Positions 3,807-63,838 of a DNA stretch of 64,000 nucleotides are shown piece by piece. Every line of letters starts with the position of its first letter. The first letter of the stretch is position 1. Made by a program: the position numbers and the translations under genes. The notes below the pieces were generated by a model, which saw nothing but the letters and a program-made list of their open reading frames with translations, searched no databases and was not told the DNA's origin. This DNA is from Campylobacterales bacterium (GTDB lineage: Bacteria > Campylobacterota > Campylobacteria > Campylobacterales > QNZT01), in contig JAJRSK010000029.1 of the NCBI GenBank assembly GCA_024278835.1, positions 91,031 to 155,030 of the forward strand, read 5' to 3'.

Positions 3807-4011
3807 ATATTTTTCTTTATGTTAGTATCATAAACACTACTAAGAACCAACATCTTTCAGTTTTTATCTTTCTATTAACCGACGATTCTCACGAAATTTT
3901 ACCTTGATAAAGAGTGTGAAGTGTGTTGGTTATTGGGAGTATTTATGTAGACGCGATGATAGCGAAAGTAAGCTTCATAAAAACTTACCTTCTCATACTA
4001 TCATGATAGCG

Positions 4012-4905
4012 TTAGTTTGCAAGCAAGTCTTTGAGGCTCTCTTTGGGATTTTTTCCTTTTATAATGGCATTGACTTCTATAGCGATAGGCACATAGATAT
4101 CTTCTTTTTTGGCGATTTTTACGATGGCTTCAGCGGTAGGTACACCCTCCGCCACTTCACCTAAATCTTCCAAAATAGCATCCATACTTTTTCCCTCAGC
4201 TAGTGCTAACCCGACACGATAATTACGTGAGAGTTTAGAAGAAGCAGTTAAAAACAAATCTCCCGAACCACCAAGTCCTATAAAGCTATCTTTTGATGCG
4301 CCAAAATGTTTTCCAAAGCGCATCATCTCTACTAAACCACGTGATATCAAAGATGCCCGAGCATTATTGCCAAGTCCCAAGCCTTCACAAATACCACTCG
4401 CAATCGCAATGACATTTTTGTACGCCCCACTCACCTCTGCTCCCATTACGTCAGTAGAGGTGTATGTCTTGATAAAAGAGGGGAAAAAAGTGCTATATTT
4501 TTCTGAGAGTTTATTATTGGTTGAACTGATGACCAACGCACAAGGAAGCCCCTGTATTACCTCCGCAGCAAAAGAAGGTCCAGAGATAAACGCCATATTT
4601 TCTTCAGGGACAAAGGCAGAAAATACTTCATTTAAAAACTTCCCAGAACTGACTTCTATCCCTTTTGATGCGACCAAAATCTTCTGATTGTTAAAGACAA
4701 AGTTATTTTCTAACCACGCTCTTGCATGTTGGGCAGAAATCGCAAAAACTAAGTATTCCAAAGAGAGTATCTCATCCACAGAGACAAAGTGTGGAATCTC
4801 TTTTTGCCTTCGTGAGGTAATAAATACTTCATTGTCAGGATTTTTTGAAAAAGCATACTGCAAAGCTTGACCCCATTTTCCCGCACCTATGATTCCTATC
4901 TTCAT
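4012..4905 (-). CDS. gpsA: NAD(P)H-dependent glycerol-3-phosphate dehydrogenase
   Basis: MKIGIIGAGKWGQAL Rossmann start, SGPSFAAEV, GLGLGNNARASLISRGLVEM, LGGSGDLFLT motifs. Confidence 0.93.
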   Translation of the reverse strand: MKIGIIGAGKWGQALQYAFSKNPDNEVFITSRRQKEIPHFVSVDEILSLEYLVFAISAQHARAWLENNFVFNNQKILVASKGIEVSSGKFLNEVFSAFVPEENMAFISGPSFAAEVIQGLPCALVISSTNNKLSEKYSTFFPSFIKTYTSTDVMGAEVSGAYKNVIAIASGICEGLGLGNNARASLISRGLVEMMRFGKHFGASKDSFIGLGGSGDLFLTASSKLSRNYRVGLALAEGKSMDAILEDLGEVAEGVPTAEAIVKIAKKEDIYVPIAIEVNAIIKGKNPKESLKDLLAN

Positions 4906-5576
4906 TTTAGCCCCTTTTTGAGTTTTGCTATATTTTTCTTATCACCGATTACGACCAAAATATCACCCTCTCGCATCTTACGATAAATCTTATGCGTATT
5001 ATAATAAAATTTACCACCCTCTTTTGCTGCATGTACCCCTATCATGATGATATCATACTCCGATTCTAAAGTAAGTTTACGAAACTGTTCCCCGATGATA
5101 CTTGTCTCTTGGGGCACGACAACCTCTGCTATCTCTATAGAGAGATCACTATAAATGATTTGGTCAAAGACATCAAAAATCTTCGGCTTTTGCAAAACCC
5201 TAAAAATTCTATGAGAACCCAAATCATAAGGGTTAACCGTATAGCTAGCCCCTGCTAGTAGCATCTTTTTTTCATCATTGACTGTGGCAGCCAGAGAGAT
5301 AATTTTAAGATTTTGATTGAGTTTGCGCGCAGAGAGTGTGACAAAAAGATTATTATTGTACTCTTCATGCATACAAAAAAATGTCTCAATCTCCTTTTCT
5401 ATGCCTATCTCTTTGAGATATATATCTTTTGTGATATCCAAGCAGCGCGCACCAAATCCATCCCCAAGAGCACTCTCTACATCTTCTTCGCTACAAGAGA
5501 CGATAAAAAATGCTATGCTCCGTGCTTTTAACATCTTTGCTAACTCTCTGGCTGTTTTTCCATATCCATATATCAC
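4902..5576 (-). CDS. TrkA-N/RCK NAD-binding domain protein, probable second RCK module of the upstream K+ channel
   Basis: VIYGYGKTARELAKML Rossmann motif and TrkA-C-like end (EGDILVVIGDKKNIAKLKKGLK); same frame as the preceding ORF across a single TAA. Confidence 0.75.
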   Translation of the reverse strand: MIYGYGKTARELAKMLKARSIAFFIVSCSEEDVESALGDGFGARCLDITKDIYLKEIGIEKEIETFFCMHEEYNNNLFVTLSARKLNQNLKIISLAATVNDEKKMLLAGASYTVNPYDLGSHRIFRVLQKPKIFDVFDQIIYSDLSIEIAEVVVPQETSIIGEQFRKLTLESEYDIIMIGVHAAKEGGKFYYNTHKIYRKMREGDILVVIGDKKNIAKLKKGLK

Positions 5577-5591
5577 TAACTGTTTGATGGC

Positions 5592-10020: not shown

Positions 10021-10278
10021 TTATTTGTTATCTAAAAGTTCTCTTAAGAGTTTGGTTTGTTCTTTGGCTTCTAAGAGTGCTTCTTCTTGGGTGTGTGCCA
10101 TCTCAAAAAAGACCACCATAAAAAGGCCGATAGTGGCACCAAAAAAACCACCAATAAGCGCGACAATAAGTCCAAAAGGGTAAAAAAGTGTAAAGAAAAG
10201 GTAAGCCCCAACGATAACGACACCCCAAGAGGCACCCTGCATGAAGCTTACCAAAGAATCAAAATTCTTACGTATCAT
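10021..10278 (-). CDS. Small two-TM membrane protein upstream of atpB (AtpI-like position; family uncertain)
   Basis: Hydrophobic two-helix protein MIRKNFDSLVSFMQGASWGVVIVGAYLFF...; start codon lies inside a TATCATGATA palindrome. Confidence 0.65.
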   Translation of the reverse strand: MIRKNFDSLVSFMQGASWGVVIVGAYLFFTLFYPFGLIVALIGGFFGATIGLFMVVFFEMAHTQEEALLEAKEQTKLLRELLDNK

Positions 10279-10284
10279 GATAGC

Positions 10285-11044: not shown

Positions 11045-11788
11045 CTAAATTGTGCGTTTTTCTTGCCCTATTCTATAGAGTGCGAAGTCGTACTTAATGG
11101 GGTCATTTTTATCAAAGGTGCGCAATTTTTGTGTGAGTTCCATAACCGCTTTTAAGTCATACTGCTTTCTTTTAAGTAAGCCTAAAGTACGTGAAACTTT
11201 GAAAGTATGGGTATCCAAAGGCAAGAGCAAATCCTTTTTATCGACAGATTTCCACAACCCCATGTCGATATTGTCTTCTCGTACCATCCATCTTAGATAC
11301 ATATGCCACCTCTTATAAGCAGAGGTGCTCTTTTTACTAGGTACTTTACCTAGTAAAAAATCATATCCATGGCTATCATAATAGTTCAGTTCTCGTAACG
11401 CCTCTATCAAAGAAACAAGTCCCTCCATCACATCCTCTTCTTTTTTATAACCCTCATAAAACTTCTCTTCTAAAGAAAATGCCTCTTTAGCCCGTTTAAG
11501 AGTGATAAAAAACGCTGCTACATCTGCTGATTTTTGAAAGCGATAGTAGTATGAAGATAAAGCTTTTTTAATATCTTCATCACTCTCTTGAAGTAATGTA
11601 AAATCTAGCGAATCCAAAAACTTAACGATTAAACCAGCATTCCCATAAGCAAAAAGCGCACAGACAAGAGAGATAGTCTCATCATTGTGCCGCTTTGCTA
11701 TCATGATAGGGTCAGGTTTAGACGCGCTAAGTTCTTCTATGTCGTTTCGTTTTGCAACTTCGATATCTAACTTCTCTTTGAGCCACAC
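11045..11788 (-). CDS. TIGR02757 (DUF2400) family protein
   Basis: NRxYYRFQ-like region, PLDTHTFKVSRTLGLLKRKQYD and KYDFALYRIGQ typical of the family. Confidence 0.75.
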   Translation of the reverse strand: MWLKEKLDIEVAKRNDIEELSASKPDPIMIAKRHNDETISLVCALFAYGNAGLIVKFLDSLDFTLLQESDEDIKKALSSYYYRFQKSADVAAFFITLKRAKEAFSLEEKFYEGYKKEEDVMEGLVSLIEALRELNYYDSHGYDFLLGKVPSKKSTSAYKRWHMYLRWMVREDNIDMGLWKSVDKKDLLLPLDTHTFKVSRTLGLLKRKQYDLKAVMELTQKLRTFDKNDPIKYDFALYRIGQEKRTI

Positions 11789-12595
11789 CTAAAGGACTTT
11801 CTCTTTTTGATTGGTATATGATTGCAAAAAATCAGAGATATTGGAGAGTGCATATATCACCAAAAATATCATAAGCCCAGGGAAAAAACTAAGCCACCAA
11901 GCGATATCGACTACATCTTTCCCCTCACTCAACACCGAACCCCACGAAATCTGTGGTGGCATGATACCAATTCCCAAGAAACTCAGCCCACTCTCTGCCA
12001 ATATCGCCCCACCTACCCCAAAGGTAAATGAGATAAAAAAGATAGGCGCAAGCAGTGGTGTAAAGTATTTTAAAATAATCTTCAAACGACTCACACCTGA
12101 GAGTTTCAGTATCTTGATAAAGGGTTTAGAAGAGATAGCAAAACTCTCACTTCTAATGAGCCTAGCCATCCCCATCCATCCTGTTATGGAGATGACGATG
12201 ATGAGTATCATGATAGAGGCATTCATATACGAAATCAACGCTAAAAGCAGGAAAAAGGTAGGAAAGGTAAGAAACAAATCTATCATGATAATGATACCTT
12301 TATCGACATTGCCCTTGAAAAAACCCGCTGACACCCCGATAATCAAGCCCAAAAATGAGGCTATCATCGCAGAACCTACACCAATAAGTAGGGAGACTTT
12401 TCCACCCTCCATCATCCTTGCAAGCACATCACGCCCTAGCCTGTCTGTCCCCATAAAGTGCTCACTAGAAGGGGGTAAAAGTATAGACGTTTTGTCCAGT
12501 TCAAACGCAGAGAGGGTATAAAAGTAGTCGCCAAAAAAAGAGAATAGCACGATGAGTAGTAGTATCATGATACTAATATAAGGAACTTTCAACAC
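11789..12595 (-). CDS. ABC transporter permease, DppC/OppC-like
   Basis: HFMGTDRLGRDVLARMMEGGKVSL and AESGLSFLGIGIMPPQISWG motifs of dipeptide-type permeases. Confidence 0.88.
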   Translation of the reverse strand: MLKVPYISIMILLLIVLFSFFGDYFYTLSAFELDKTSILLPPSSEHFMGTDRLGRDVLARMMEGGKVSLLIGVGSAMIASFLGLIIGVSAGFFKGNVDKGIIIMIDLFLTFPTFFLLLALISYMNASIMILIIVISITGWMGMARLIRSESFAISSKPFIKILKLSGVSRLKIILKYFTPLLAPIFFISFTFGVGGAILAESGLSFLGIGIMPPQISWGSVLSEGKDVVDIAWWLSFFPGLMIFLVIYALSNISDFLQSYTNQKEKVL

Positions 12596-12917: not shown

Positions 12918-13631
12918 TCAAAGATGCAAACTCTTTCCCTTCTCATCTGTTATCTCAAAGGTCAAACTCATCGCATATATCCACTCAAATAGTGGCAGTA
13001 AATCTTCATATATCTTAAACGCTTTCTCTATCAGTTTATCATGATAAATCATCTCAGGCTTAACACCCTTATAAGCAAACATAGCAGCATAAAGACTCAA
13101 ATGTGCATAAGACATATCTTTATCAAAACCTCTTGGATAGCGTTTATAGTGGGGTTCAGGAAAAGAGTAGCCCTTTGCTTTGAGGTCTATCATGATAGTC
13201 TCCAACTCTTTGGCATGTCCTTCATCCTTGATATATTCACGATAACCAGCCAAGGAGTCTTTAGAAAATCCCCGTATACCAGAAGCGATAAGTAATTCAT
13301 CAGGAGAAAAATGCAGATAAAATGAAGCACTTTGAAGCCTCTTGCCACTGCCTCGCCAAAAGACGATACCAATACGACTTTTAAGGGGTGTTTTGTCTTT
13401 ACTCAAACGCACATCCCTAAAGATTCGAAACAGAGAACCATTGATTTTTGGGATAGCATTGATGTTGGGAACAAGGGCTTGGAGATGCTCACCAAACTCC
13501 ACAACAAAAGCACGGCTAGGATTTAAGATATAATCATCATAACGATAGCGGTTATCTTCAAACCACTCTTTGTTGTTGTTTTCTCGAATATCTTGTAAAA
13601 AGTCTACACTCTCTTTAGAGAAAAACCGCAT
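12918..13631 (-). CDS. DUF2461 (TIGR02453) family protein
   Basis: FLQDIRENNNKEWFEDNRYRYDDYIL, RIFRDVRLSKDKTPLKSRIGIVFWRG family motifs. Confidence 0.85.
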   Translation of the reverse strand: MRFFSKESVDFLQDIRENNNKEWFEDNRYRYDDYILNPSRAFVVEFGEHLQALVPNINAIPKINGSLFRIFRDVRLSKDKTPLKSRIGIVFWRGSGKRLQSASFYLHFSPDELLIASGIRGFSKDSLAGYREYIKDEGHAKELETIMIDLKAKGYSFPEPHYKRYPRGFDKDMSYAHLSLYAAMFAYKGVKPEMIYHDKLIEKAFKIYEDLLPLFEWIYAMSLTFEITDEKGKSLHL

Positions 13632-16126: not shown

Positions 16127-16627
16127 TTAGTTTCCTTCGGCTATTTCAGCTTTTGCGTAGTTTATCAAGCCACCTACATCTATCAACTCTTGCATAAAAG
16201 GAGGAATAGGGGTAAATTTATAATTTTTACCCGTCGTGATATCTTGTATCTCACCCTTTTGCATATCTATCATGATAGTGTCTCCTTCGGCTATCTCATC
16301 TGCTTGGGGTAGTTCAAAGATAGGTAGTCCCATATTAAACGCATTGCGGTAAAAAATCCGTGCGAAGCTCTTGGCGATGATGGCTGAAACGCCCACCGCT
16401 TTGAGTGCGATAGGGGCATGCTCACGCGAAGAGCCACAACCAAAATTTTCTCCAGCGACGATGACATCACCCACACCCACTTTAGTGACAAATTCAGGAT
16501 CAGCATCTTCCATAGCGTACTTTGCCAAGTGTTCAGGATCTGAACTATTTAAATATCTAGCAGCAATAATCAAATCGGTATCGATATTATCACCAAATCT
16601 CCAAACTTTTGCGTTTGTGTTACTCAT
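16127..16627 (-). CDS. leuD: 3-isopropylmalate dehydratase small subunit
   Basis: [42 protein letters not shown]. Confidence 0.95.
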
Positions 16628-16693: not shown

Positions 16694-17650
16694 CTAAGAA
16701 AATAGCGGTGTCTGATTTTCCTCATGCCATGCGAGAATGCCTTCCCATGCCTCCTTGGCATCCTTGGCAAACCAAAAGAGTTCTCTATCCTCCGCATCAA
16801 TCACACCCTCAATCTCCAACACCTCAAAATCAATCACCCTCTCCCAATACTCCTGCCCCACAAAAACCACAGGAATAGGCGCAATCTTTCTTGTTTGTAT
16901 CAAAGTCAATGCCTCAAAAAGTTCATCTAGCGTACCAAATCCACCAGGAAACACAACCAAAGCACAAGAGCGTTTCAAAAAGTGCATCTTACGGATAGCA
17001 AAATAGTAAAAGAGGAAACAGAGTTCTGGCGTGATGTAGGGATTGGGGAACTGTTCATGTGGCAGGGTGATGTTTAAGCCTATGGACTTTGCCCCTACTT
17101 CATACGCTCCACGATTAGCCGCTTCCATGATACCTGGGCCTCCACCTGTCATCAGGGTGACACGATTGTCATTTTTCCCCTTTCCTGCTTTACCAACCAA
17201 TGTGCCAAACTCTCTAGCCATGGCATAATAACAAGACTTTTCAAGTACCCTCTCGGCTACTTTGAGTCTCTTTAAAAACACCCTAGAATCAGGCTTATCA
17301 TGATAGGCTTTCTGCGCCTCTTCTAGCTGTTTAAACGCCCTCTCATGCTCTACGATACGTGTACTACCATACACGACTATTGTCCGTTCTATACCATTTT
17401 TCACCAGAGTATTTTCAACTTTAAGATAATCTAATTGTAAACGTGCAGGAAGTGCCGCATCATCAAGTAAAAAATCACTATCTTCTATCGCCATCTTATA
17501 CGAAGGACTTTTCATGATAGCATCAAGATTTTTCTGGGCATTGGGGTCTTCAGACGTTGGCTTGGGGTGTTGCCATGGGAGTTCACAGTGACGCGTGGTT
17601 TTGTTGGGTGGTTTTTTGAATGGTTTTTTCATCATACATACCTCTATCAT
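16694..17650 (-). CDS. LOG family (TIGR00730-like) protein; true start probably the ATG at 17635 or 17632
   Basis: VTLMTGGGPGIMEAANRGAYE and VVFPGGFGTLDELFEALTL (PGGxGTxxE) motifs. Confidence 0.85.
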   Translation of the reverse strand: MIEVCMMKKPFKKPPNKTTRHCELPWQHPKPTSEDPNAQKNLDAIMKSPSYKMAIEDSDFLLDDAALPARLQLDYLKVENTLVKNGIERTIVVYGSTRIVEHERAFKQLEEAQKAYHDKPDSRVFLKRLKVAERVLEKSCYYAMAREFGTLVGKAGKGKNDNRVTLMTGGGPGIMEAANRGAYEVGAKSIGLNITLPHEQFPNPYITPELCFLFYYFAIRKMHFLKRSCALVVFPGGFGTLDELFEALTLIQTRKIAPIPVVFVGQEYWERVIDFEVLEIEGVIDAEDRELFWFAKDAKEAWEGILAWHEENQTPLFS

Positions 17651-17686: not shown

Positions 17687-20600
17687 TTACCAATCTATTT
17701 TATCACCATGCCTTTTAGAAGATTTTAAATCCACACCCAATCCTTCTTCACCTCGTCCTGTCCACTTGGCTTTGTCTGGCGAGAGAGAAAGTTTAAATTT
17801 ATGATAATCCACAGCACCATTGTATGGGTCAAACTTCAGATACTCTGTAGATGGTTTATAAAGTACTGTATCCCTAAATGGTAGTTTTGGCACTTGTATC
17901 GTCATCGTGCTAGAGCTTGTATGCCCAAGGTAGGTAGTTCCCGTACTTGGACCCGCAGTATTTGTCGTACTACTCGCACCAAAGAGCAACTTCATCGGCT
18001 CAAAATCCAAATCATTACTTAACCCGGCAGAAATCTTAAACCAGCGTATCATATCTTCACTCTCTTTTAAGTTCTCTAATCCAAAAGCATTCTTAGTGAC
18101 ACTGTCTTCCATATAGACTTCATAAGAGACGGTTACATTTGCCTCTTTTCCTATGAAGGCTTGTGGTGATGGTACATTAGCGCGTAGGTAGATGAAGTTT
18201 TTAACGGCATCACTATCATTTGACTTATTTTTCGTCATTGTCACCCCTCCCTGCGTTGCAGTAACAGAATACAATTTTAATTGCATAGGGTTTTTTGGTT
18301 CATTCTTCGCTCTTTCAAAGTTTATTTTAACTGTCATATTTCCTTCACCATTACTTACAAACTTAGAACTGTTCATATCATACGCTAGTACTTTAGTATT
18401 CCAGTTTAATGCACCTGGCACTTTTTTACCATCATAGACGACAACTGGTACCAAATCATCTTCACCCACACCACTAAAAGTTGCCTTTATAGAGACATCT
18501 TTGGCATAACAGCCCTCTTTAAAGTTACTAAGAAGATTTCCATGTGCATCTTGCATGCTTACGGTTGCTTTTAGCTTTGCTGCCATCTTATCTGTTTCAT
18601 CTCCTGCGTAAAAGACATACTTTTGATCTTGAGAGTCTGACTCAAATGTCGCATCTAACACTATTTTGCTTGCAGTAAACTCTACTGAATTTGTTTGGTA
18701 TGGAGAGATAAATCTAGCACTATCAGCTGTGTCATCCTTATCTACAAGTGCAAACTCTTTTCCATCTACTTCTTTAACTTTAAATGTCAGTGCTCCTACA
18801 TCGTCATACTTTGCGGCAATTATCTTTGCCTCACCATTAACAAATGGGACTTTTGAGAAGCTTAAAGTACCAAGTGAACAGGTACTACCACTCACCACCT
18901 TGGTATCATTATAATCTAAAGCATAAACATCTGCTGCTTCATTGTAACTTGTCACTACATTGCCACTCTCATCTTTTGCCTCTATAGTGATGTTAAAATC
19001 CTCTCCTGCTTTGAGGCCTGTTGATGGCGTTAATGTAATCATATAATTTTTTGGACGGATTGAAAAACTATCTGATGAACATGATTGTCTATAGACATTT
19101 TTTAACTTGTCATACCAGTAGAGTTGCACTCTCTTCTCTTTTGATGCTTGTGATTGTGCTGGAAAATGCACTAGCGTTGCACTAAATGGAACATACCCCG
19201 CCTCATTGCTCAATCTGGCACTCAATTCACCCTCGACACAATCACTATTTTCTACAATTTTTGCTTTAGTCTCATTGACATCATCAAAACTACTCCCTGT
19301 TATCATAGAGATATTTAAATCAAATGCCCTACCGACTATCTGTGTAGTGATTTTTCTATCGCTTTCTTCTATCACTTTATTGTAAGCATCAAACTTTGTA
19401 TAATCATTATCAAGGATATGACAAATGCCAAAAATTTCCTCTTCTTTAGAGTGTGCACCATAAATTTTTGAGAGCTTAATTAAGAATTCTTCATTTGCTT
19501 CTGTAACAAGGTCTCCTACGACTTCAACACCAACAACTGTTTCGGACTCACCTTTTTTGATAATTCCACTACCCTCGTTATACACATAATCACTCCCTTT
19601 GCTCGCTGAACCTTCTAGAGTTTCATAATAAAATGTCACATCTTTAATCGCAGGTTTATCTAACTTGATGCGGATATTTAAGGTTTTTGTTCCACTATCT
19701 CCTTCAGTGATAGTTAAATTATCATCGATAGAGATATCTGGTCGCATAGCAGCATCCGCACACCTTGCACCATCACCTGAACCAGGACCTGTAAATTTTT
19801 GATAATATTCAGCATCCAGACTGATACTACTTCCATCCCCTATAAAGAGTTTGTAAATATCCATCTCTTCACCATTTTGTTGTGAAAAGTAAAAGTTTCC
19901 ATCTTTATCAAAAAAGGTAATAACAGCATTGTCAGCATTTTTGTCCACATTGTCTATAAAATTTATCTTTCCAAGAAAATCAATCTTTTTAGTCTCAAGG
20001 TTGATACGAACTAACTCATGAGAGGTTCCATCAACACCATAAAGCTTCTTATCTTTTATATTAAAAGCAAAATCTGAAATGACAGTTTTGCTTTCTGAAG
20101 TCATCTCTATAGGATCTAAAAATCTATCATTTTTAATATCATAACGATATAGATAATCTGTTTTTTTAAGTAACCATCCAAAATAGAAAATACCATCTTG
20201 CACATCACCATCTGCAAAAGCATTCGTGCTGTACGCTTCAGGTAGTGCTATACGCTTGACAACATTGTAGTTTTTATCTATCTTTACAATAGAGTGAGCT
20301 TCACCGCTTTTACCTTCGATACCATAAAGAAAATCATCATCAACACTATATCCAGCCGCATTGATATGGGCTTCTCCTACTTTTGCCAAAAAATCGATTG
20401 ATCGATTTTCAAAGTTGACTAAGCTTAAATTTACATCATTATCTGTTTTCCAATTATCACTCGCACTAAACAAGTATGCGTTCTCTTCACAAGTGAAAGA
20501 ATCTCCATCATCATTAAGTATCGTTCCCACTGCACTCAAACTATTATCATGATAGAGTGCCCCTTTGACATTTGATAGCACCACTTTAAACTGCTCATCT

Positions 20601-23197: not shown

Positions 23198-23229
23198 GAT
23201 ATACCTACTTAATAAATTTACTAAGTGTA

Positions 23230-23256: not shown

Positions 23257-23340
23257 ATAAAAAGTAAATAAAAGTTATCTTTTTCTTGGGAGAATACACA
23301 GTAGAAGCACAAAAAGTGCTTCTATACATGATAGGGAAGT

Positions 23341-33979: not shown

Positions 33980-34166
33980 TTTTAAAACCTAATCTTTTTA
34001 TTTAAGCTTATCTTATAATTAAAAGTTTTAAATCTTGTTGAAAATTAGCTAAAAATTAAATTAATTAAAGCTTTTAAAAATCCTATCATGATATAAACTT
34101 TTTTAGATAAAATACGCACAAAGGGCACCTCTAAAAACCCTAAATTATAATGAAGGCAGATTAAAG

Positions 34167-40642: not shown

Positions 40643-41925
40643 TAGGTATCTATATGTTTGTGACTGCCTTGATACTCTTGCTTATCGGTTTTCCTGTGGC
40701 TTTTGCCTTTGGTTCAGCAGCTATTTTCACTGCCTATTTTGCCCCTGATGTAGGGATAGAAGTCTTTAATCTTCTCCCTTCTCGCATCTATGGCATCATG
40801 CAAAACTTCAACCTTATCGCCGTGCCACTCTTTATCTTTATGGGACTGATACTTGAAAAAAGCAAAATAGCCGAATCGATGCTACTCTCTATCGGGAAAC
40901 TTTTTGGTTCTGTGCGTGGTGGGTTGGCTATCTCTACGGTATTGGTTGGGTCGGTGTTGGCAGCAAGTACAGGGATAGTTGGGGCATCCGTTGTGATGAT
41001 GAGTGTGATTTCTCTTCCTATCATGATAAACCACGGCTACGCGAAATCCCTCGCCTCTGGTACCATCGCCGCCTCAGGCACCCTCGGACAAATTGTGCCA
41101 CCTTCTATCGTCTTAATCATACTCGGAGATGTGATGAGTGTGGATGTTGGTTCACTCTTTCGCGCTGCCTTAGCACCTGCTTTGCTACTCATAGGACTCT
41201 ATATCCTCTATATCCTCATCGTCTCTCAGCTAAATCCCAATATCGCGCCTGCTATCATCGATAAGAGCAGTAAAAAAGAGGTGATATTCTCTGCTATCAA
41301 AGCACTCATCGCCCCAACCCTGCTTATCATGATAGTGCTAGGTAGTATCTTTATGGGGATTGCCACGCCTACAGAGTCAGCTGCTTTTGGGGCGATTGGG
41401 GCGATTGTTTTGACCTTGCTAAATGGCTCTTTTCACTTTGACACCCTACAATATGCCGCGATGGAAACTGTCAAGATGACTGCGATGATATTTATGATTC
41501 TCATCGGAGCAACGGCATTTTCACTGGTTTTTAATGAGTCGGGTGGTGCCGATGTGGTGTTAGCATTTTTCTCAGAAGATATCGCTAGTAAATGGAGCTT
41601 TATCTTTATCGCGATGCTTGCTATCTTTATCTTGGGATTTTTTGTCGATTTTTTAGAGATTACCTTTATCATTATCCCTATCTTGGTTCCTATCCTTACT
41701 CACTTTCATATCGACCCACTTTGGTTTGCTATCCTTGTGGCGATGAATCTGCAAGCCTCTTTTCTCACCCCACCCTTTGGCTTTGCCCTCTTTTACTTAA
41801 AAGGTGCTGCAGGAGATAAGGTAAGTACGGGTGATATTTACAAAGGGGTCTTGCCATTTATCGCATTGCAGTTATTGGCACTTGGCATATTGATGATGTT
41901 TCCAGAGATTGTGAGACTTTTTTGA
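40639..41925 (+). CDS. TRAP transporter large permease (DctM family)
   Basis: Multi-TM; VPLFIFMGLILEKS, GTIAASGTLGQIVPPSIVLIILGDVM, TPTESAAFGAIGA. Confidence 0.93.
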   Translation: MIGIYMFVTALILLLIGFPVAFAFGSAAIFTAYFAPDVGIEVFNLLPSRIYGIMQNFNLIAVPLFIFMGLILEKSKIAESMLLSIGKLFGSVRGGLAISTVLVGSVLAASTGIVGASVVMMSVISLPIMINHGYAKSLASGTIAASGTLGQIVPPSIVLIILGDVMSVDVGSLFRAALAPALLLIGLYILYILIVSQLNPNIAPAIIDKSSKKEVIFSAIKALIAPTLLIMIVLGSIFMGIATPTESAAFGAIGAIVLTLLNGSFHFDTLQYAAMETVKMTAMIFMILIGATAFSLVFNESGGADVVLAFFSEDIASKWSFIFIAMLAIFILGFFVDFLEITFIIIPILVPILTHFHIDPLWFAILVAMNLQASFLTPPFGFALFYLKGAAGDKVSTGDIYKGVLPFIALQLLALGILMMFPEIVRLF

Positions 41926-43693: not shown

Positions 43694-44251
43694 TTACTTG
43701 CTTAGTTTTTTTAATGCTTCTTTGATGAGCGTGGAAGTATCACCCGCCTTGATACCAGAGAGTGCCTTTTTGATACTCTCTTTTTTAAAGCCCAAACTCT
43801 CTAGTGCCATCGTCGCTTCACCCATCGAGACAGAAGTGCTATCTTCATCCACACCCAAGTTAAAATCTCCTAATTCTACCAAAATACGCTTAGCACTCTT
43901 AGTACCAATACCCGGCACCATTTTTATCGCGGCCACATCTTGCCCCATGACAGCCGCTTGGAAACTCTCAGGCGTAAACGTTGAACAGATTGCCAACGCG
44001 GTACTTGGTCCCACGCCATTTATCTTTATCACCCTATCAAACATGGTTTTTTCATATTCTGAGATGAAACCAAAAAGTGTGTGTGAATCTTCTTTGACAA
44101 TGAGTGTTGTATGTAAAGTAATTTCTTTAGTATCGATAGAAGCGGAGCAGTGAAGAGAAATTTTAACAGCGTATGTCAGACCAGAAGGGGTTTTCAAATG
44201 TAAGAGAGTGGGTTCTTTTTTAACCACCTCTCCTGAGATTGCGATTATCAT
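43694..44251 (-). CDS. ruvA: Holliday junction branch migration protein RuvA
   Basis: MIIAISGEVVKKEP..., INGVGPSTALAICSTF, VPGIGTKSAKRILVEL. Confidence 0.93.
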   Translation of the reverse strand: MIIAISGEVVKKEPTLLHLKTPSGLTYAVKISLHCSASIDTKEITLHTTLIVKEDSHTLFGFISEYEKTMFDRVIKINGVGPSTALAICSTFTPESFQAAVMGQDVAAIKMVPGIGTKSAKRILVELGDFNLGVDEDSTSVSMGEATMALESLGFKKESIKKALSGIKAGDTSTLIKEALKKLSK

Positions 44252-44261
44252 GATAGAGGGT

Positions 44262-46262: not shown

Positions 46263-47681
46263 ATGATAAAGTCTATATTTACCAACTCTTTTGGCATACT
46301 CTTTTCTCGTATATTAGGATTTATCCGTGATATGCTACAAGCTTCTATCCTTGGTGCAAACATCTATACCGATATCTTTATCGTTGCTTTTAAATTGCCC
46401 AATCTTTTTCGCCGTATCTTCGCAGAAGGTGCTTTTACCCAGAGTTTTTTACCCTCTTTTACCGCCTCAAAACAAAAAAGGATATTTTCAGCCTCTATTT
46501 TTAGAAAATTTGCCCTATTTTTACTCTTTTTCTCCCTCTTAGTCACCCTCTTTTCAAACTTTTTCACGAGGATTATCGCTTCAGGATTTAGCAGTGATAT
46601 CATCCAAGAGGCAGCACCTTTGGTGGCAATTAACTTTTACTATCTACTCCTTATCTTTACCGTCACTTTTTTAGCGTCACTTTTGCAGTATAAAAACCAC
46701 TTCGCGACCACCGCTTTTTCTACCGCACTTTTAAATATTGCCCTTATCTTTGCCCTACTCTATTCAGGTGATATGGAGAAAAAAACGATTATTTACCATA
46801 TGTCTTATGCCGTCGTCATTGGGGGTATTATGCAAGTCATTGTACATGTTATCATGATAAAGAGACTACACTTAGATAAATTTTTACTGGGTGGATTTGC
46901 TGCATTAAAAAAGAAAAAGAGTCGCGTTAGTGAGGAGATACACTCTTTTAATAGCAAGTTTATAGCTTCTACCTTAGGCTCTTCCACGGCGCAAATATCT
47001 GCATTTTTAGATGGATGGCTCGCCTCTTTTTTACTCTCAGGGTCTATCTCCTATCTCTATTATGCAAACCGTCTTTTTCAATTTCCTTTAGCACTTTTTG
47101 CTATCGCAACATCCGTAGCCATTTTTCCAAAAGTAGCTCGCTATCTAAAAAATGAAGACTTTGATAAAGCCCACAGAATCTTACATAATAGTTTTTGGTT
47201 TTTAGCCTCCATTCTTACCGTCTCTACTATAGTAGGTATGCTCTTTTCCAAAGAAATTGTCTGGTTATTATATGAGCGGGGAGAATTTTCAGCACTTGAT
47301 AGTCACAATACTGCTTTTATCTTATCAATGTATCTTGTAGGGCTACTCCCTTATGGACTCTCTCGTATCTTTTCCTTGTGGCTCTATTCTACCCATAGAC
47401 AAAAAGAGGCTGCCAAGATTTCTGCTATCGCACTAGGGGCAAATATCCTCCTCTCTTTAAGCCTTGTCTACACCTATAAAGCAGCAGGATTGGCACTTGC
47501 TTCCTCGCTGAGTGGTTTTATTCTTCTCTTTTTAACGATTCGTGCCTTTGGCACACAAGCCTTTTTGGATATAATAAGATCAAAAAAATTGGTATACCTG
47601 TTGGTATTTGCCATACTATTTACTATCATGATAGTTTCACTAAAGGATTATTTCGGTGCTTATTTACAATTCTCAAAGTAA
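46263..47681 (+). CDS. murJ: Lipid II flippase MurJ (MviN)
   Basis: SFGILFSRILGFIRDMLQASILGA, PNLFRRIFAEGAFTQSFLPSF, multi-TM. Confidence 0.94.
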   Translation: MIKSIFTNSFGILFSRILGFIRDMLQASILGANIYTDIFIVAFKLPNLFRRIFAEGAFTQSFLPSFTASKQKRIFSASIFRKFALFLLFFSLLVTLFSNFFTRIIASGFSSDIIQEAAPLVAINFYYLLLIFTVTFLASLLQYKNHFATTAFSTALLNIALIFALLYSGDMEKKTIIYHMSYAVVIGGIMQVIVHVIMIKRLHLDKFLLGGFAALKKKKSRVSEEIHSFNSKFIASTLGSSTAQISAFLDGWLASFLLSGSISYLYYANRLFQFPLALFAIATSVAIFPKVARYLKNEDFDKAHRILHNSFWFLASILTVSTIVGMLFSKEIVWLLYERGEFSALDSHNTAFILSMYLVGLLPYGLSRIFSLWLYSTHRQKEAAKISAIALGANILLSLSLVYTYKAAGLALASSLSGFILLFLTIRAFGTQAFLDIIRSKKLVYLLVFAILFTIMIVSLKDYFGAYLQFSK

Positions 47682-49056
47682 GAAAAAAGAGCTTTTTATC
47701 CCTCTTGAAGAAAATGTCGTTCGCATCTATGTATGTGGGCCTACCGTCTATGATGATGCCCATCTAGGACACGCCAGATCTGCGCTAGCTTTTGATCTTT
47801 TGCGTCGTGTTTTTAAAGCGGAGGGTTACAGAGTCATCTTTGTGAAAAACTTTACTGATATCGACGATAAAATCATCAACAAGATGAAAGAGACAGGCAG
47901 AAGCTTAGAGAGTATCACTGATGAATTTATCCAAAGTTATAAAAATGACATGCACGCACTGGGAATAGAAGATGCGGATATCGAACCCAAAGCGACAAAA
48001 AACCTTGACAATATCATCCACTATATAGAGACACTCATCAAAAAAGATTTTGCTTACGTTATAGATGATGGGGTTTACTTTGATGTTAGCCGTGATGAGA
48101 AATACTTTTCACTCTCCCACAGAGAGGTAGCAGATGAGCAGACACAAAGTCGTGTAGAATCAAACTCTCAAAAAAGAGATCCTAAAGATTTTGCGCTTTG
48201 GAAAATTTATCATGACAACTCCCTGACTTTTGATAGCCCATGGGGAAAAGGCCGTCCAGGCTGGCATATAGAGTGTTCTGCGATGATTAAACATCATTTA
48301 AGTGTAGCGGATAAAGCGTACCAGATAGATATCCATGGAGGTGGTGCGGACTTACTCTTTCCTCACCATGAAAATGAAGCATGTCAAAGTCGCTGTGAAA
48401 GTGGTCATGAACTGGCACGCTACTGGATGCACAATGGTTTTGTCCAGATAGATGGCACCAAGATGAGCAAATCCCTTGGAAACTCTTTTTTCTTAAAAGA
48501 TGCCCTTAAGGTATATAATGGCGAAGTCTTACGCTTTTATCTGCTTTCCTCTCACTACCGCGCCAATTTTAACTTCAATGAAGAGGATTTAATCGCTTCT
48601 CAAAAACGTCTTGACAAACTATATAGGTTAAAAAAACGTCTTGGCACTGAGAAAATATCGGCTGTCAACAAAACTTTTAAAAAAGAGATTTTAGAGAGTT
48701 TAAATGATGATTTAAATATCTCATCTGCCCTTGCTACACTTGATATCATGATAGCCTCTAGCAACGAACACTTAGATGCAAATCCAAAAGATAAAGCATA
48801 CAAATATGAAGTAAATGCCAACCTTGACTTCATAAAAGCACTTTTAGGTATCGGAACAATGGATGCGTTTACCTATTTTCAGCTAGGCATACCTGCAAAA
48901 GAGATAGCAAAGATAGAAGCACTTATAGAAAAAAGAGATAGCGCAAAAAAAGAGAAAAACTATGCCCTTTCAGATGAGATACGAGATACGCTTCTAAGAC
49001 AAAATATCAAGATTATGGATACTCCTAGCGGCACGCAGTGGGAGAGAGGCGAATAA
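47656..49056 (+). CDS. cysS: Cysteinyl-tRNA synthetase
   Basis: VCGPTVYDDAHLGHARSALAFDLLRR, WHIECSAM, DIHGGGADLLFPHHENEACQ, KMSKSLGN. Confidence 0.96.
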   Translation: MLIYNSQSKKKELFIPLEENVVRIYVCGPTVYDDAHLGHARSALAFDLLRRVFKAEGYRVIFVKNFTDIDDKIINKMKETGRSLESITDEFIQSYKNDMHALGIEDADIEPKATKNLDNIIHYIETLIKKDFAYVIDDGVYFDVSRDEKYFSLSHREVADEQTQSRVESNSQKRDPKDFALWKIYHDNSLTFDSPWGKGRPGWHIECSAMIKHHLSVADKAYQIDIHGGGADLLFPHHENEACQSRCESGHELARYWMHNGFVQIDGTKMSKSLGNSFFLKDALKVYNGEVLRFYLLSSHYRANFNFNEEDLIASQKRLDKLYRLKKRLGTEKISAVNKTFKKEILESLNDDLNISSALATLDIMIASSNEHLDANPKDKAYKYEVNANLDFIKALLGIGTMDAFTYFQLGIPAKEIAKIEALIEKRDSAKKEKNYALSDEIRDTLLRQNIKIMDTPSGTQWERGE

Positions 49057-52411: not shown

Positions 52412-53482
52412 ATGCGAGAATCTATGCAATATAGTAATTTCAAAAACATTATTTTCAAACTTAACCCTGAGGCAGCCCACAACCTTGTTGAATCAAGCCT
52501 CACTACTTTAGCTAAACATGCCCCCGCTGTTTTGGAAAAAGTAGCAAAAGCCTACTGTGTCAAAGATGAAAAACTTTCACAAACGCTGTTTAATGTCACT
52601 TTCCCTAATCCTGTCGGGTTAGCCGCTGGATTTGATAAAAATGCCACGATGTTAGAGGGATTAGCTGCCGTAGGATTTGGTTCCATTGAATTTGGTACCG
52701 TAACGCCTATGCCACAAGAGGGCAATGCAAAGCCAAGGCTATTTCGTTTCCCTGAACATAACAGCGTTCAAAACGCTATGGGCTTTAACAATGAAGGATT
52801 AGTAGCCGTTAAAAAACGTGTCAGCGCCTACTACCCTTACAAAGTACCACTAGGTGCCAACATCGGTAAAAACAAAACCACTACACCACTCAATACCCTA
52901 GATGACTATAAAAAACTCATCCACGCTTTTCATCCTATCTCTGACTATATCGTGATTAATATCTCTTCCCCCAATACCCCAGGATTACGAGACTTACAAA
53001 ATGAAGACTTTATCTCTTCGCTATTTGACATGGCACTTCGTATCACAGACAAACCAATTTTACTTAAAATTGCACCTGATTTAGAAGTCCAAGATGCCAT
53101 CGACATGTGCCAAATCGCACTTAAACATGGCGCCGCTGGTATCATCGCCACTAATACCACGATTGATTATTCCCTTCTTCCAGAGGCCAAAGACTTTGGT
53201 GGTATCTCTGGGGAGGTACTTAAGGAAAAAAGTTTCAGACTTTTTCAAGCCTTGGCAAAAAAGTTTTATGGCAAAACAACGCTTATTTCAGTAGGTGGCA
53301 TTGATAGTGGAGAAGAGGCATATCGTCGCTTAAAAGCTGGTGCTACACTTGTACAAGTATTTAGTGCTATTATTTTTGAAGGGCCTTCGCTGGTTAAAGA
53401 TATCAACACCACAATCTTAAAACTGATGGAAAAAGATGGCTATAATCACATATCAGAGGTCATAGGATCGGACTTATCATGA
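52412..53482 (+). CDS. pyrD: Dihydroorotate dehydrogenase (quinone)
   Basis: NPVGLAAGFDKNATMLEGL, GFGSIEFGTVTPMPQEGNAKPRLFR, NISSPNTPGLRDLQ, ISVGGIDSGEEAYRRLKAGA. Confidence 0.96.
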   Translation: MRESMQYSNFKNIIFKLNPEAAHNLVESSLTTLAKHAPAVLEKVAKAYCVKDEKLSQTLFNVTFPNPVGLAAGFDKNATMLEGLAAVGFGSIEFGTVTPMPQEGNAKPRLFRFPEHNSVQNAMGFNNEGLVAVKKRVSAYYPYKVPLGANIGKNKTTTPLNTLDDYKKLIHAFHPISDYIVINISSPNTPGLRDLQNEDFISSLFDMALRITDKPILLKIAPDLEVQDAIDMCQIALKHGAAGIIATNTTIDYSLLPEAKDFGGISGEVLKEKSFRLFQALAKKFYGKTTLISVGGIDSGEEAYRRLKAGATLVQVFSAIIFEGPSLVKDINTTILKLMEKDGYNHISEVIGSDLS

Positions 53483-54783
53483 TAAGAATATTTTTACTAA
53501 CTATATCAACACTAGGCATACTAATGAGTTCTACACTTCCAAAACACTTTACGAAAACACTTGAAAATGGCTTACAAATAGTCGTCATACCTATGGAAAA
53601 TGGCTCCAACGTTATCACAACAGATATCTTCTATCGTGTGGGAAGTCGTAATGAAGTGATGGGGAAAAGTGGCATTGCCCATATGCTTGAACACTTAAAC
53701 TTTAAATCAACAAAGAATCTAAAATCTGGTGAATTTGACACCATCGTCAAAGGTTTTGGTGGGGTTAACAATGCTTCAACAGGTTTTGACTATACACAAT
53801 ACTTTATCAAATCTTCTTCCGACAATCTCTCTAAGTCGCTAGAACTTTTTGCCGAATTGATGCAAAACTTAAATTTAAAAGATGAAGAGTTTCAACCAGA
53901 ACGCGATGTTGTTTTAGAAGAGCGCAAATGGAGAACAGACAATTCCCCTATGGGCTATCTCTACTTTAGACTCTTTAATAACCTTTACCTTTATCACTCA
54001 TACCACTGGACACCTATTGGTTTTAAAGATGACATTAAAAACTGGAGTATTGAAGATATCACTAGTTTTCACAAAACTTTTTATCAACCACAAAATGCTA
54101 TCCTCATCGTAGCAGGAGATGTCAAGCCTGACACAGTCTTCGAAGAAGCAGAAAAACAATTTAAAGATATCAAAAATAGTGGAGATATTCCCATACCACA
54201 TCAAATAGAACCTGTACAAGATGGGGCAAAACGCTTGGTTGTACATAAAGAGACAGAAGTAGAAATGCTGGCAATTGCTTTTCACATACCAAACTTTCAA
54301 CACGCTGACCAACCAGCACTTTCTACTATCTCTGAGCTTTTAAGTTCTGGGAAAAGTAGCCGATTAAATGCCCTTTTGATTGATCAAAAAAACTTAGTCA
54401 ACTCTATTTCAGCCTACAACATGGAAAACAAAGATCCAGGTGTATTTCTTTTCCTTGCCGTTTGTAACCCTGGTGTCAAAGCTGAGAGCGTAGAAAAAGA
54501 GATTTTAGCAGAGATTGAAAAACTAAAAACAACAGAAATCACAGCAGCAGAGTTAGAACGTGTGAAAATCAACACAAAAGCAGACTTTATTTTTGAGATG
54601 GAAAGTTCAAGTAACTTAGTAAGTATCTTTGGTTCTTACTTAGCCCGTGGCGATATCAATCCTCTCCTTAACTACGAAAAAGATATCTACGCACTCAAAC
54701 CTAACACTATCAAGGAAGTTGCAAACAGATACTTTAACACAAAAAATTCAACAACACTTATACTAAAAAAGGAAGCAAAATGA
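53479..54783 (+). CDS. M16-family zinc peptidase
   Basis: [11 protein letters not shown] (HxxEH), secretion signal, insulinase-type architecture. Confidence 0.93.
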
Positions 54784-56972: not shown

Positions 56973-58048
56973 TGGGAATTTTTGTTTCGTTTATGGTGCT
57001 CTCTGCACTCATCATCTTTCACGAATGGGGGCATTTTCTTGCCGCTAGATTTTTTAAAGTAAAAGTAGAAGAGTTTGGACTTGGTATGCCAATCTTTGTG
57101 ACAAAACCACTTATCAAAAAACAGTGGGGTGACACACAATATTCATTCTACCCTGTTTTATTAGGTGGATTTGTCAAAATGAAAGGTCAAGATGACTTTG
57201 ATCTCAGTAAAAAAAGTACGGATGAAGATTCTTACATGTCTAAAAAACCATGGCAAAAAATCATCATTTTATTGGCAGGTCCTTTTGCCAATTTATTATT
57301 AGCTTTTTTACTTTATATTGCAATAGCTTACCTAGGTGCGGATAAACTAGCCCCTGTGATAGGTGGCATAGGAGAAAACTCTCCCGCCCAACAATCAGGT
57401 ATCATGATAGGCGATAAAATACTCTCAGTCAATGGTCAACATGTCGTCACATGGGATGAAATGGGAAAAATCATCAAAAACTCTGAAGGTTCACTTTCTC
57501 TTAACATTGATAGAAATGGAACACTTAAAGCCCTCTCCCTCATTCCTCATATCGCTGAAAGTAAAAATATGTTTGGTGAGACTATCCAAAAGAGGCTCAT
57601 TGGTATCGCCCCTAAAGGTGAATTTGTCACATTGGAATTTAATGGTGTTGGTGAAGTACTCAGCTATGCATGGCATGAAACCGTCTGGGCAACAACACTC
57701 ATCGTACAGAGTGTAAAAAAATTGATACAAGGCATCATTCCAGCAGATCAGATGGGTGGTATCATCTCTATCATGGATGTGACTTCACAAGCACAATCTA
57801 TCGGTATTGCTACACTTTTAACCCTCATGGCACTCATCTCAGTCAACCTAGGAGTTCTAAACCTCTTACCTATCCCAGCCCTTGATGGAGGGCATATCAT
57901 GTTTAATCTTTATGAAATTATTTTTAAGCGTGTTCCAAGTGAAAAAGCATTTTATTATATGACTGTGGGTGGTTGGGTATTTTTACTCTCACTTATGGCA
58001 TTTACAACTTATAACGATATCATACGACTTATAGGAGGTTCATCATGA
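56972..58048 (+). CDS. rseP: RseP-type site-2 zinc metalloprotease (M50)
   Basis: FHEWGHFLAARFF (HExxH), PDZ region ENSPAQQSGIMIGDKILSVNG, NLLPIPALDGGHIMF. Confidence 0.92.
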   Translation: MGIFVSFMVLSALIIFHEWGHFLAARFFKVKVEEFGLGMPIFVTKPLIKKQWGDTQYSFYPVLLGGFVKMKGQDDFDLSKKSTDEDSYMSKKPWQKIIILLAGPFANLLLAFLLYIAIAYLGADKLAPVIGGIGENSPAQQSGIMIGDKILSVNGQHVVTWDEMGKIIKNSEGSLSLNIDRNGTLKALSLIPHIAESKNMFGETIQKRLIGIAPKGEFVTLEFNGVGEVLSYAWHETVWATTLIVQSVKKLIQGIIPADQMGGIISIMDVTSQAQSIGIATLLTLMALISVNLGVLNLLPIPALDGGHIMFNLYEIIFKRVPSEKAFYYMTVGGWVFLLSLMAFTTYNDIIRLIGGSS

Positions 58049-58728: not shown

Positions 58729-60000
58729 TCACTTAACATTGACTGTAAAATTTCTTCCATTTGAAGGAGTAATAAGCAATTTTCCCGCACTTTTTGCAGT
58801 TATCATGATAGTATTAGCGTCATAAAACGCTATATCTGCAAGTAGCCCAGTCGCTGAAAATGTTGTCAACTTATCATTACAATGGGCAGGTGATAGATAA
58901 AAAAGTGTTGTTTTATTCACCCCTACTTCAAATATTTCTCCACTTGTTGTGACATTAAAATAAGGATATGGCAACGAGGCTGTTTTAAAATCAACTGTTT
59001 CTATTTTCGATATATCCCCATCATGATAGGCTATCTCAACATGGTATTTACTATCCCACTCCAATCGCTTCATCGGGAAAAGGGCAAACTCAAACTCTGT
59101 AAAATGTTGGTTTGGATCATTTTTTTGATCCATCAATTTTACATCTGTTACTTCTTGATTATTACTGTCATACAATTTAAAGTTATCTATGGTGATAGCC
59201 CCATTTTTGAGGGAATTAAAAGAGATACTGACAGGATATCCACTCACTGAACATTCAGGTAAGGGATCTGGACTCTCCTCATAAAATACTGGAGAAATAT
59301 TACTCGCTCCATGATAAGGCCAAATAACACGGGCTGGATTTTGTAACTTATTTTCCTCATAGGCGATGGTAAAACTAGAAGCAGCTATCTGCTTAGTACT
59401 ATCTAAACAGATATTTTCATAATATGCACCTCCATTTATTTGCTCTGTCCCCTCACACAGTATGCGTAGTGGTGAAATACCCATATTGTAGTTGTACACA
59501 TTACCATAAGTATAGACATCACTTTGTGAAAAACCAATTCCCAATTCATCATAATCATAGTTTAAAAAACCAAAACGATGATAAATAGCAGAGAAAAGTG
59601 TATCTATTGACTCTTCAACACCCCGGTTGGATGAAGAAATATTTTCCCCCACAATGGCATGTTCATATCCTGTATAGCGTGTTCTATCGGATGGAGTAAC
59701 TCCTGTAAATCCACTGTTATCTGCTGATTCGATATGTGCAAAAAGATTATTATTTGTGAGATAAGTTGCGTGATTTTGAGACGCTTCTTCCAAATGTACT
59801 TCATATTGCAGTGGTATCATATCTACATATGTCCGCAAAGTATTAAGATAAGATAGTCCCCCATCTCGTATCTCAATCAAAGACGATTCATTAGTCACTC
59901 TTTCAATTTTTGAATCAACGCCTACAGTACCAGACTCTCCACATCCTATCAGAAAAGTCGTTAGTGTCAAACTTATAGTTATATATTGATAATATTTCAT
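58729..60000 (-). CDS. CAP-domain (SCP/PR1-like) lipoprotein with C-terminal Ig-like region
   Basis: Lipobox LIGCGES; SYLNTLRTYVDMIPLQYEVHLEEASQNHATYLTNNNLFAHIESADNSGFTG CAP-like core. Confidence 0.75.
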   Translation of the reverse strand: MKYYQYITISLTLTTFLIGCGESGTVGVDSKIERVTNESSLIEIRDGGLSYLNTLRTYVDMIPLQYEVHLEEASQNHATYLTNNNLFAHIESADNSGFTGVTPSDRTRYTGYEHAIVGENISSSNRGVEESIDTLFSAIYHRFGFLNYDYDELGIGFSQSDVYTYGNVYNYNMGISPLRILCEGTEQINGGAYYENICLDSTKQIAASSFTIAYEENKLQNPARVIWPYHGASNISPVFYEESPDPLPECSVSGYPVSISFNSLKNGAITIDNFKLYDSNNQEVTDVKLMDQKNDPNQHFTEFEFALFPMKRLEWDSKYHVEIAYHDGDISKIETVDFKTASLPYPYFNVTTSGEIFEVGVNKTTLFYLSPAHCNDKLTTFSATGLLADIAFYDANTIMITAKSAGKLLITPSNGRNFTVNVK

Positions 60001-62773: not shown

Positions 62774-62810
62774 ATGTTAAAATATACTTTCAATATAAAA
62801 GGAGAAAATA

Positions 62811-63029
62811 ATGTTACACGAATATAGAGATGTTATTGCTACACTAAAAGCACAAGATGCACACTTCGCAAAAATGTTTGAAAAACACAATGAATTGGAT
62901 AACCAACTTGAAAACAAAGGTGAGCACTTAAATGATTTAGAAATGGAAAAACTTAAAAAAGAGAAACTTGTACTTAAAGATACGATTTATGCACAAATTA
63001 TGAAATTTAAGGCGGATAATAACTTCTAA
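62811..63029 (+). CDS. YdcH-like DUF465 protein
   Basis: HEYRDVIATLKAQDAHFAKMFEKHNELDNQL ... EMEKLKKEKLVLKDTIYAQI. Confidence 0.88.
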   Translation: MLHEYRDVIATLKAQDAHFAKMFEKHNELDNQLENKGEHLNDLEMEKLKKEKLVLKDTIYAQIMKFKADNNF

Positions 63030-63082
63030 GATTATCTTTATAAAGTATAACTCTCCCGCAGTGAAGAGTTATGCACGAATAC

Positions 63083-63838
63083 TTAGCCTTTAGCCTTCTC
63101 GTAGGCTTTTGAAATGGCTTTTATCAAACCATCCCTAACTTTCCCCTCTTCCAATGCAGCATACCCAGCAGCCGTCGTACCCCCTGGGCTCATCACTTCA
63201 TCTTTGATGATAGCAGGATGTTTCTCATTGAGTAGTGGAGAGAACCCTTCAAAAAGCCCTCTCACAAGCGTATAAGCATCTTCTCGTTTTAATCCCTCTT
63301 TTACGGCACCATCACTAAGTGCTTCTGCCACAAGTGCTAAAAATGCTGGTCCACTTCCTGCCACAGCCGTGGCAATATCTATCTCTTTTTCGCTCGAGAG
63401 CCATAAAGCAGTACCAATACTTTCACAAATAAGCATCGCCTCTTTTTTAAAAGTCTCATCTCCAAAAACTGTTGTCATAGATTTTTGATGTGAAGCGGCT
63501 AGATTTGGCATAGTACGTACATAAGATTTTGCTTTGATATGTTTCTTGAGAGAGGATAATGAGGTTCCTGCTAGTACGGAAAGAAGTGCATTTGCTTCTC
63601 CTGTGAAATGACTACTTACAGATTCAAGTGCATAAGGTTTCACACAAAAGATGAGATTTTTTCCTTCGATATCAAATGAGTTTTCAAATCCACCTGCACT
63701 TTTTATCTTGGGATAACGCGTCACAAGAGCTGCTAATTTTGCACTATCTCGCCCAGCAACTTCTATATCATGATAGACAATCGCGCCTTGTATGATAGCC
63801 TCAGCCATCTTTCCTGTACCAATGATAGTTAATTTCAT
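63083..63838 (-). CDS. proC: Pyrroline-5-carboxylate reductase
   Basis: MKLTIIGTGKMAEAII, AVAGSGPAFLALVAEALSDGAVKEGL, VMSPGGTTAAGY. Confidence 0.93.
   Translation of the reverse strand: MKLTIIGTGKMAEAIIQGAIVYHDIEVAGRDSAKLAALVTRYPKIKSAGGFENSFDIEGKNLIFCVKPYALESVSSHFTGEANALLSVLAGTSLSSLKKHIKAKSYVRTMPNLAASHQKSMTTVFGDETFKKEAMLICESIGTALWLSSEKEIDIATAVAGSGPAFLALVAEALSDGAVKEGLKREDAYTLVRGLFEGFSPLLNEKHPAIIKDEVMSPGGTTAAGYAALEEGKVRDGLIKAISKAYEKAKG

Follow-up and report, generated by a model that had tools for sequence, protein, structure and literature searches.

A highly iterated 10-12 bp palindrome confined to one Campylobacterota genus and its likeness to the cyanobacterial HIPs

Why should one short palindrome recur dozens of times in 64 kb of bacterial DNA, inside unrelated genes as well as between them? 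The question was raised by a stretch of 64,000 nucleotides, called the window below, from a Campylobacterota genome (contig JAJRSK010000029.1; G000:C41:91031-155030 in our genome set; assembly of 2.51 Mb in 77 contigs, 99.99% complete). In it a first-pass annotation had listed 34 copies of the 10-mer TATCATGATA and likened them to HIP1, the highly iterated palindrome (HIP) of cyanobacteria, reportedly described by Robinson in 1995. All 34 listed positions proved exact and one overlooked copy brings the total to 35 (Table 1), against a chance value of 0.16 in dinucleotide-preserving shuffles (largest shuffle value 2), close to the roughly 0.2 copies per window assumed earlier. Genome-wide, the enrichment was real and had been understated: we counted 1,549 copies, that is 618 per Mb or one per 1.6 kb, compared with 7 for the reversed, non-complemented control and a chance expectation of about 6-30.

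In 377 kb of the genome, TATCATGATA ranked first by z-score among all 10-mers and was also the most enriched palindromic 10-mer, with 232 copies and a runner-up at 20. The flanks favour a longer palindrome, as had been noticed in the window: position -1 is C in 57% and T in 27% of the copies, giving the extended consensus YTATCATGATAR, outside which base composition equals background, conservation ending at the 12th base. The 16-nt perfect palindrome CTCTATCATGATAGAG exists as well, its first placement at 32393-32406 being in error (Table 1), and the probe spelling of the palindrome for protein binding is CTATCATGATAG. Further analyses used sequence samples of 701 kb from this genome and 1.12 Mb from its congener (G001), with genes taken from simple open reading frame (ORF) calls and expectations for mismatched forms from a Markov model with the motif masked; the 1.6-kb contig G000:C75 (L241; guanine plus cytosine (GC) content 0, no G or C letters, probably a run of N) was excluded from the mismatch and pair-spacing analyses. 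Exact copies stood at 54 times expectation in G000 and 63 times in G001, forms with one mismatch at 1.9 and 2.45 times and those with two at 0.96 and 1.04 times. The one-mismatch excess in G000 came chiefly from transitions, which affected positions 1, 2 and 4, those at the outer positions being about sixfold enriched (T1 to C, 69 against 11 expected; A2 to G, 31 against 5.0), and changes at position 5 occurred at chance level. Among the near-matches earlier described as common, CATCATGATA (which is TATCATGATG on the opposite strand) was indeed enriched sixfold, whereas TATCATGATT was at chance (12 against 9.0 expected in 701 kb). The hexamer TCATGA, at 1.08 times expectation outside the motif in G000, was rejected as the unit, which is YTATCATGATAR, a palindrome of 10-12 bp whose 10-bp core TATCATGATA has a GC content of 20% and within which 421 of the 2,520 CATG tetranucleotides of the G000 sample (17%) fall.

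The expansion belongs to the genus level, because G000 alone is strongly enriched among 397 Campylobacterota genomes and its congener, the second of the two genus members in the genome set, is likewise high (1,009 copies in ~2.3 Mb, about 440 per Mb, against 1 for the control). Among the 397, G062 from another family followed with 166 copies and each remaining genome held at most 23; counts in the other genera of the same 22-genome family were 3-88. A paired-motif search across 85,000 genomes gave, among the matches listed, mostly isolated conserved pairs in unrelated phyla, and the sole strongly enriched genome among those counted whole from these matches, G398, matches the congener in its counts and contigs. 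Viral contigs included no phage with a high density of TATCATGATA. The first-pass annotation knew of no description of the motif, and we found none in 5.39 million open-access papers.

Several lesser occurrences were recorded outside the genus. G062 (L145-L152; control count 2 genome-wide) is a weaker, more diffuse relative in which TCATGA reaches 1.9 times and ATCATGAT about 3 times expectation with the motif masked, and which also carries a solitary CATG-type methyltransferase. In G414, a metagenome-assembled genome of a sister genus (L159, L160), the nine sampled copies all lie on two of four contigs, which suggests that they are contaminating DNA of the motif-bearing genus or were acquired from it. 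A 60%-GC genome of Candidatus Lindowbacteria (nzgw232; L027, L056, L068, L088, L117, L126) holds 80 copies against 0 for the control; they are grouped closely and so probably represent a different repeat. Pairs of TATCATGATA at fixed start-to-start distances recur in many related genomes of the Nitrososphaeria (37 bp; L079, L099, L100, L113, L114, L125) and of the Rhodobacterales (27 bp; L033, L035, L045, L107, L108), where they probably belong to conserved operators or parts of genes and have no connection with the genus motif.

The motif has changed the proteome of its host. Within the G000 sample, 324 of 421 copies (77%) lie wholly inside predicted genes, where they encode the tripeptides IMI or YHD, the third reading frame holding a TGA stop and being unused. 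We found 218 IMI tripeptides against 35 expected from amino-acid composition (about 6-fold), 210 of them spelled ATC ATG ATA, one of nine possible spellings, and 141 YHD tripeptides against 10.6 expected (about 13-fold), 136 of them spelled TAT CAT GAT; spelling behaved in the same way in G001. The first-pass annotation had argued for maintenance at the DNA level and had named equal enrichment of synonymous IMI and YHD spellings as the contrary outcome; these spellings are almost absent. A depletion of alternative IMI spellings through conversion of near-sites is not claimed here, the motif-masked Markov model giving TATCATGATC 2 against 1.7 expected and TATTATGATA 19 against 6.6.

Comparison of the one available species pair, over 214 kb of alignable G000-G001 sequence with 74% DNA identity, located the constraint. 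Of 115 G000 sites, 56 had an identical counterpart in G001, compared with 8.2% for background 10-mers, with flanks 70% identical, and the conservation of sites between related genomes, which had been proposed as a check, followed the DNA rather than the peptide. Where the tripeptide was conserved, the exact 10-mer was kept in 31 of 31 cases in the IMI frame (10.6% for other windows) and in 10 of 13 in the YHD frame (16.1%); conservation of the tripeptide itself was ordinary (55-68% against 57%). Since the exact DNA is kept while tripeptide conservation is ordinary, selection or drive acts on the DNA itself and not on the encoded protein. That the motif is a by-product of codon or peptide usage favouring IMI or YHD might be suggested by the large share of copies within genes, but two unrelated peptides in two reading frames are involved, one IMI spelling of nine prevails, density between genes exceeds that within them (0.86 against 0.51 per kb in G000, 0.89 against 0.38 in G001), and intergenic copies are themselves conserved (7 of 17, against a background of 10%). 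The spelling bias and the conservation of the DNA rule this origin out, and its probability is practically nil. Furthermore, the gap fraction at coding sites was 5% and 10%, near the background of 5%, and sites therefore originate where they stand, through substitution. Dispersal of a mobile or short interspersed element would account for the high copy number and the recent genus-level expansion; however, orthologous positions without a site mostly align gap-free and flanks beyond the 12th base have background composition, and with neither conserved flank nor insertion gaps this explanation is ruled out and retains hardly any credibility.

Which known system does the motif resemble? The HIP class comprises perfect palindromes over-represented at about 500-2,500 per Mb (Elhai 2015, PMC4390886), a range in which G000 falls and below which G001 lies slightly, and its one-base deviations occur at outer positions and rarely at the central methylated bases (PMC4390886), as do the deviations reported above. 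Like HIP1 (GCGATCGC) and the alternate HIPs, the motif is a short perfect palindrome found hundreds of times per Mb in genic and intergenic DNA; as with HIP1, it is taxon-limited and a solitary D12-type methyltransferase is predicted to act on its central tetranucleotide. It is not HIP1 proper, having another sequence and a host from a different phylum. It also differs in being 10-12 bp long and limited to one genus, and in its low GC content, the alternate HIPs being GC-rich (75-100%, except TCGATCGA at 50%; PMC4390886). Its one-mismatch forms reach 1.9 times expectation, compared with 11 times for the 10-mer HIP1 in Synechocystis (PMC1939737), an approximate comparison in that the published values use base composition and ours a Markov model. 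HIP genomes encode a methyltransferase for part of the palindrome (PMC4390886); here the candidate is the single D12 enzyme of each species, with CATG as its predicted target, and no second methyltransferase was identified. In addition, palindrome gain coincides with methyltransferase gain among HIPs (PMC4390886), whereas here methyltransferase presence across relatives does not track the motif. Because GC-richness and the coincidence of gains are both lacking, we report a variant that appears to work like a HIP rather than a member of the class.

The solitary methyltransferase postulated from the window exists, with CATG rather than TCATGA as its predicted target. Exactly one PF02086 (D12) methyltransferase is encoded in each of G000, G001 and G062, and these three genomes yielded no intact methyltransferase of the PF01555 family. 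The G000 and G001 enzymes are 78% identical and occupy the same locus, their genes being convergent with selO in both species, with exonuclease III-like and SelO genes as neighbours; both share genus-specific changes after the catalytic DPPY motif, reading SNYT in place of the S-x-Y-C of most homologues. In G420, of the same family, the gene of a 64%-identical homologue directly follows that of an ICEA-family protein (PF05315, E 2e-115), and in Helicobacter pylori the NlaIII-like endonuclease iceA1 has hpyIM as its partner CATG methyltransferase (PMC2749054 and references). This kinship points to CATG, the centre of the motif, as the predicted target of the D12 enzyme, which may methylate every site at its centre. 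Unlike the iceA1-hpyIM/NlaIII pair, the enzyme is solitary, because G000, G001 and G062 gave no match to ICEA; it lacks the adjacent cognate endonuclease gene of a type II restriction-modification system. Neither the methyltransferase nor the IceA-type protein had a match in a sequence search of the PDB.

We give about an even chance to the explanation that YTATCATGATAR serves the genus as a chromosomal signal of its own, highly iterated and preserved because selection or drive acts on the DNA, and that it has a methylated centre and is read by a dimer. In this view a DNA-binding protein of the genus, with two-fold symmetry, would read the 10-12 bp palindrome and the D12 adenine methyltransferase would mark the centre of each site, so that the methylated signal would label 'own' DNA for chromosome maintenance (recombination, repair or segregation), a logic that would be shared with HIP1 and its GATC/CGATCG methyltransferases. 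Sites would arise by point substitution in place, not by insertion, and would be retained once formed. A bolder form of this proposal, which we hold to be somewhat short of an even chance, is that a HIP-type signal outside cyanobacteria arose in one Campylobacterota genus, rewrote more than 1,000 sites, gave hundreds of proteins an IMI or YHD, and has as its reader either a genus-specific dimeric protein or the solitary CATG methyltransferase in retuned form. Several points weigh against the signal hypothesis. The reader is postulated, no such protein having been identified; the CATG specificity derives from homology; and sites are unevenly spaced, which does not favour a structural role as a ruler. 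Moreover, about 100 of the 397 genomes carry methyltransferase homologues at ~47% identity or more and show no enrichment of TATCATGATA; a close family member, G410, has a homologue at 62% identity and only 4 copies. The methyltransferase is therefore at most one component, and a CATG methyltransferase as sole cause is ruled out. Five methyltransferase-positive relatives that were sampled had no excess of TCATGA, in a comparison with ~79 kb of methyltransferase-negative sequence.

A non-adaptive process, in which a functionless sequence is produced and maintained by methylation-directed mismatch repair or by some other repair bias, as Elhai proposed for HIP sites, would fit the solitary methyltransferase and an excess of one-mismatch forms that consists mostly of outer transitions, as decay products would. 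We consider it quite unlikely, as such a process must span 10-12 bp, with TCATGA outside the motif nearly at expectation, must override protein sequence to the extent seen for IMI and YHD, and must have left methyltransferase-bearing relatives without enrichment.

The placement of sites bears on the signal hypothesis and on two further rivals. Counts per 10 kb were Poisson-like (variance/mean 0.93) and spacing was irregular (coefficient of variation (CV) 1.07 and 1.02), which rules out even spacing or a ruler; helical phasing modulo 10.5 showed nothing clear. Close pairs nevertheless showed a small excess in number, being over-represented about 6-fold at 18-25 bp in G000 (12 against 2.0), mostly within genes, and 7-fold at 18-21 bp in G001, mostly between genes, where they may be hairpins. 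Among chromosome-maintenance motifs, Chi and KOPS lack symmetry and favour one strand, and parS, matS, SlmA and Noc sites occur in small numbers within particular regions. All of these are short and over-represented, as the present motif is, and are read by a dedicated protein, as it may be, but the present motif is symmetric, abundant and near-randomly placed. A binding site for a nucleoid, segregation or replication protein, a palindromic operator in the manner of parS, matS, SlmA or Noc sites, would agree with the perfect two-fold symmetry and strict 10-bp core, which imply a dimeric binder, and with the close pairs; about 1,500 near-randomly placed sites instead of tens of clustered ones, and the possible hairpins behind the G001 pairs, make it quite unlikely.

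We likewise regard as unlikely that the palindrome is a DNA uptake signal, preferred by competent cells and spread by transformation-driven molecular drive like the uptake signal sequence (USS) of Pasteurellaceae and the DNA uptake sequence (DUS) of Neisseriaceae. The resemblance lies in a density of roughly one per 1-2 kb, a unit of 10-12 bp beside cores of 9-12 bp, restriction to a genus beside genus or family dialects, occurrence in coding and intergenic DNA with the higher density between genes, and absence from islands. Natural transformation is possible, ComEC being present in G000 and in six of six relatives checked, but ComEC is not discriminating, as motif-free relatives have it equally. 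In contrast to the present motif, which is a perfect palindrome, known uptake signals are non-palindromic (PMC1939737). Their mismatch halo is also broader: on the same approximate footing as above, one-mismatch forms stand at about 3, 6 and 11 times expectation in three uptake genomes, compared with 1.9-2.45 times here, and an excess persists there at two mismatches (PMC1939737), where it is absent here (0.96-1.04 times).

The motif is absent from two long stretches of the sampled G000 sequence. The longest, 14 kb (G000:C45, ~54.3-68.7 kb; L227), is a type I-F CRISPR-Cas operon with Cas1, Cas3, Csy1 and Csy2, and the second, 12 kb at 31.5% GC (G000:C1, 19.4-31.6 kb; L002), is a surface-polysaccharide biosynthesis cluster. 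CRISPR-Cas and polysaccharide loci are commonly acquired, and both stretches look like acquired DNA. Similarly, genes acquired by Synechococcus elongatus stand out by their scarcity of HIP1 (PMC3025956).

HIP1 was recognised as early as 1995, and what it does is still an open question, in part because the palindrome is ancient, occurs in most cyanobacteria and follows their phylogeny. Restriction of the present motif to a single genus among hundreds of motif-free sequenced relatives makes its gain datable, candidate reader genes findable by presence and absence, and selection measurable at synonymous sites. The genus carries a chromosome-wide signal of its own, comparable to HIP1 in another phylum and with another sequence. 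A signal at the DNA level can dictate amino-acid sequences throughout a genome, and the motif marks own as opposed to acquired DNA.

Table 1. Copies of the palindrome TATCATGATA in the window (position 1 is the first letter of the 64,000-nucleotide stretch)
Feature	Position	Strand	Remarks
TATCATGATA copy	237..246	.	exact; absent from the first-pass list
TATCATGATA copy	3999..4008	.	exact
TATCATGATA copy	10273..10282	.	exact
TATCATGATA copy	11699..11708	.	exact
TATCATGATA copy	12206..12215	.	exact
TATCATGATA copy	12281..12290	.	exact
TATCATGATA copy	12563..12572	.	exact
TATCATGATA copy	13037..13046	.	exact
TATCATGATA copy	13188..13197	.	exact
TATCATGATA copy	16268..16277	.	exact
TATCATGATA copy	17296..17305	.	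exact
TATCATGATA copy	20545..20554	.	exact
TATCATGATA copy	22568..22577	.	exact
TATCATGATA copy	23192..23201	.	exact
TATCATGATA copy	26431..26440	.	exact
TATCATGATA copy	30766..30775	.	exact
TATCATGATA copy	32395..32404	.	exact; within the 16-nt perfect palindrome CTCTATCATGATAGAG at 32392-32407
TATCATGATA copy	32743..32752	.	exact
TATCATGATA copy	34084..34093	.	exact
TATCATGATA copy	36626..36635	.	exact
TATCATGATA copy	37285..37294	.	exact
TATCATGATA copy	37593..37602	.	exact
TATCATGATA copy	39289..39298	.	exact
TATCATGATA copy	40273..40282	.	exact; codes for SIMIGE in a TRAP-type small permease
TATCATGATA copy	40615..40624	.	exact
TATCATGATA copy	41019..41028	.	exact
TATCATGATA copy	41325..41334	.	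exact
TATCATGATA copy	44246..44255	.	exact
TATCATGATA copy	46850..46859	.	exact
TATCATGATA copy	47624..47633	.	exact
TATCATGATA copy	48744..48753	.	exact
TATCATGATA copy	53475..53484	.	exact
TATCATGATA copy	57400..57409	.	exact
TATCATGATA copy	58801..58810	.	exact
TATCATGATA copy	63766..63775	.	exact

Two other features of the window were recorded. Positions 17687-30342 hold two very large ORFs of 1,836 and 2,333 amino acids, which share a repeated segment ending in NEKAGKN or NEKSAKN and have similar C-termini; they probably encode large secreted or surface proteins. The ORF at 50846-51610 contains tandem ETPKLETPKLE repeats, encoded by the DNA repeat CACCAAAACTAGAAA, which form a proline-rich linker resembling those of TonB-type or envelope-spanning proteins.

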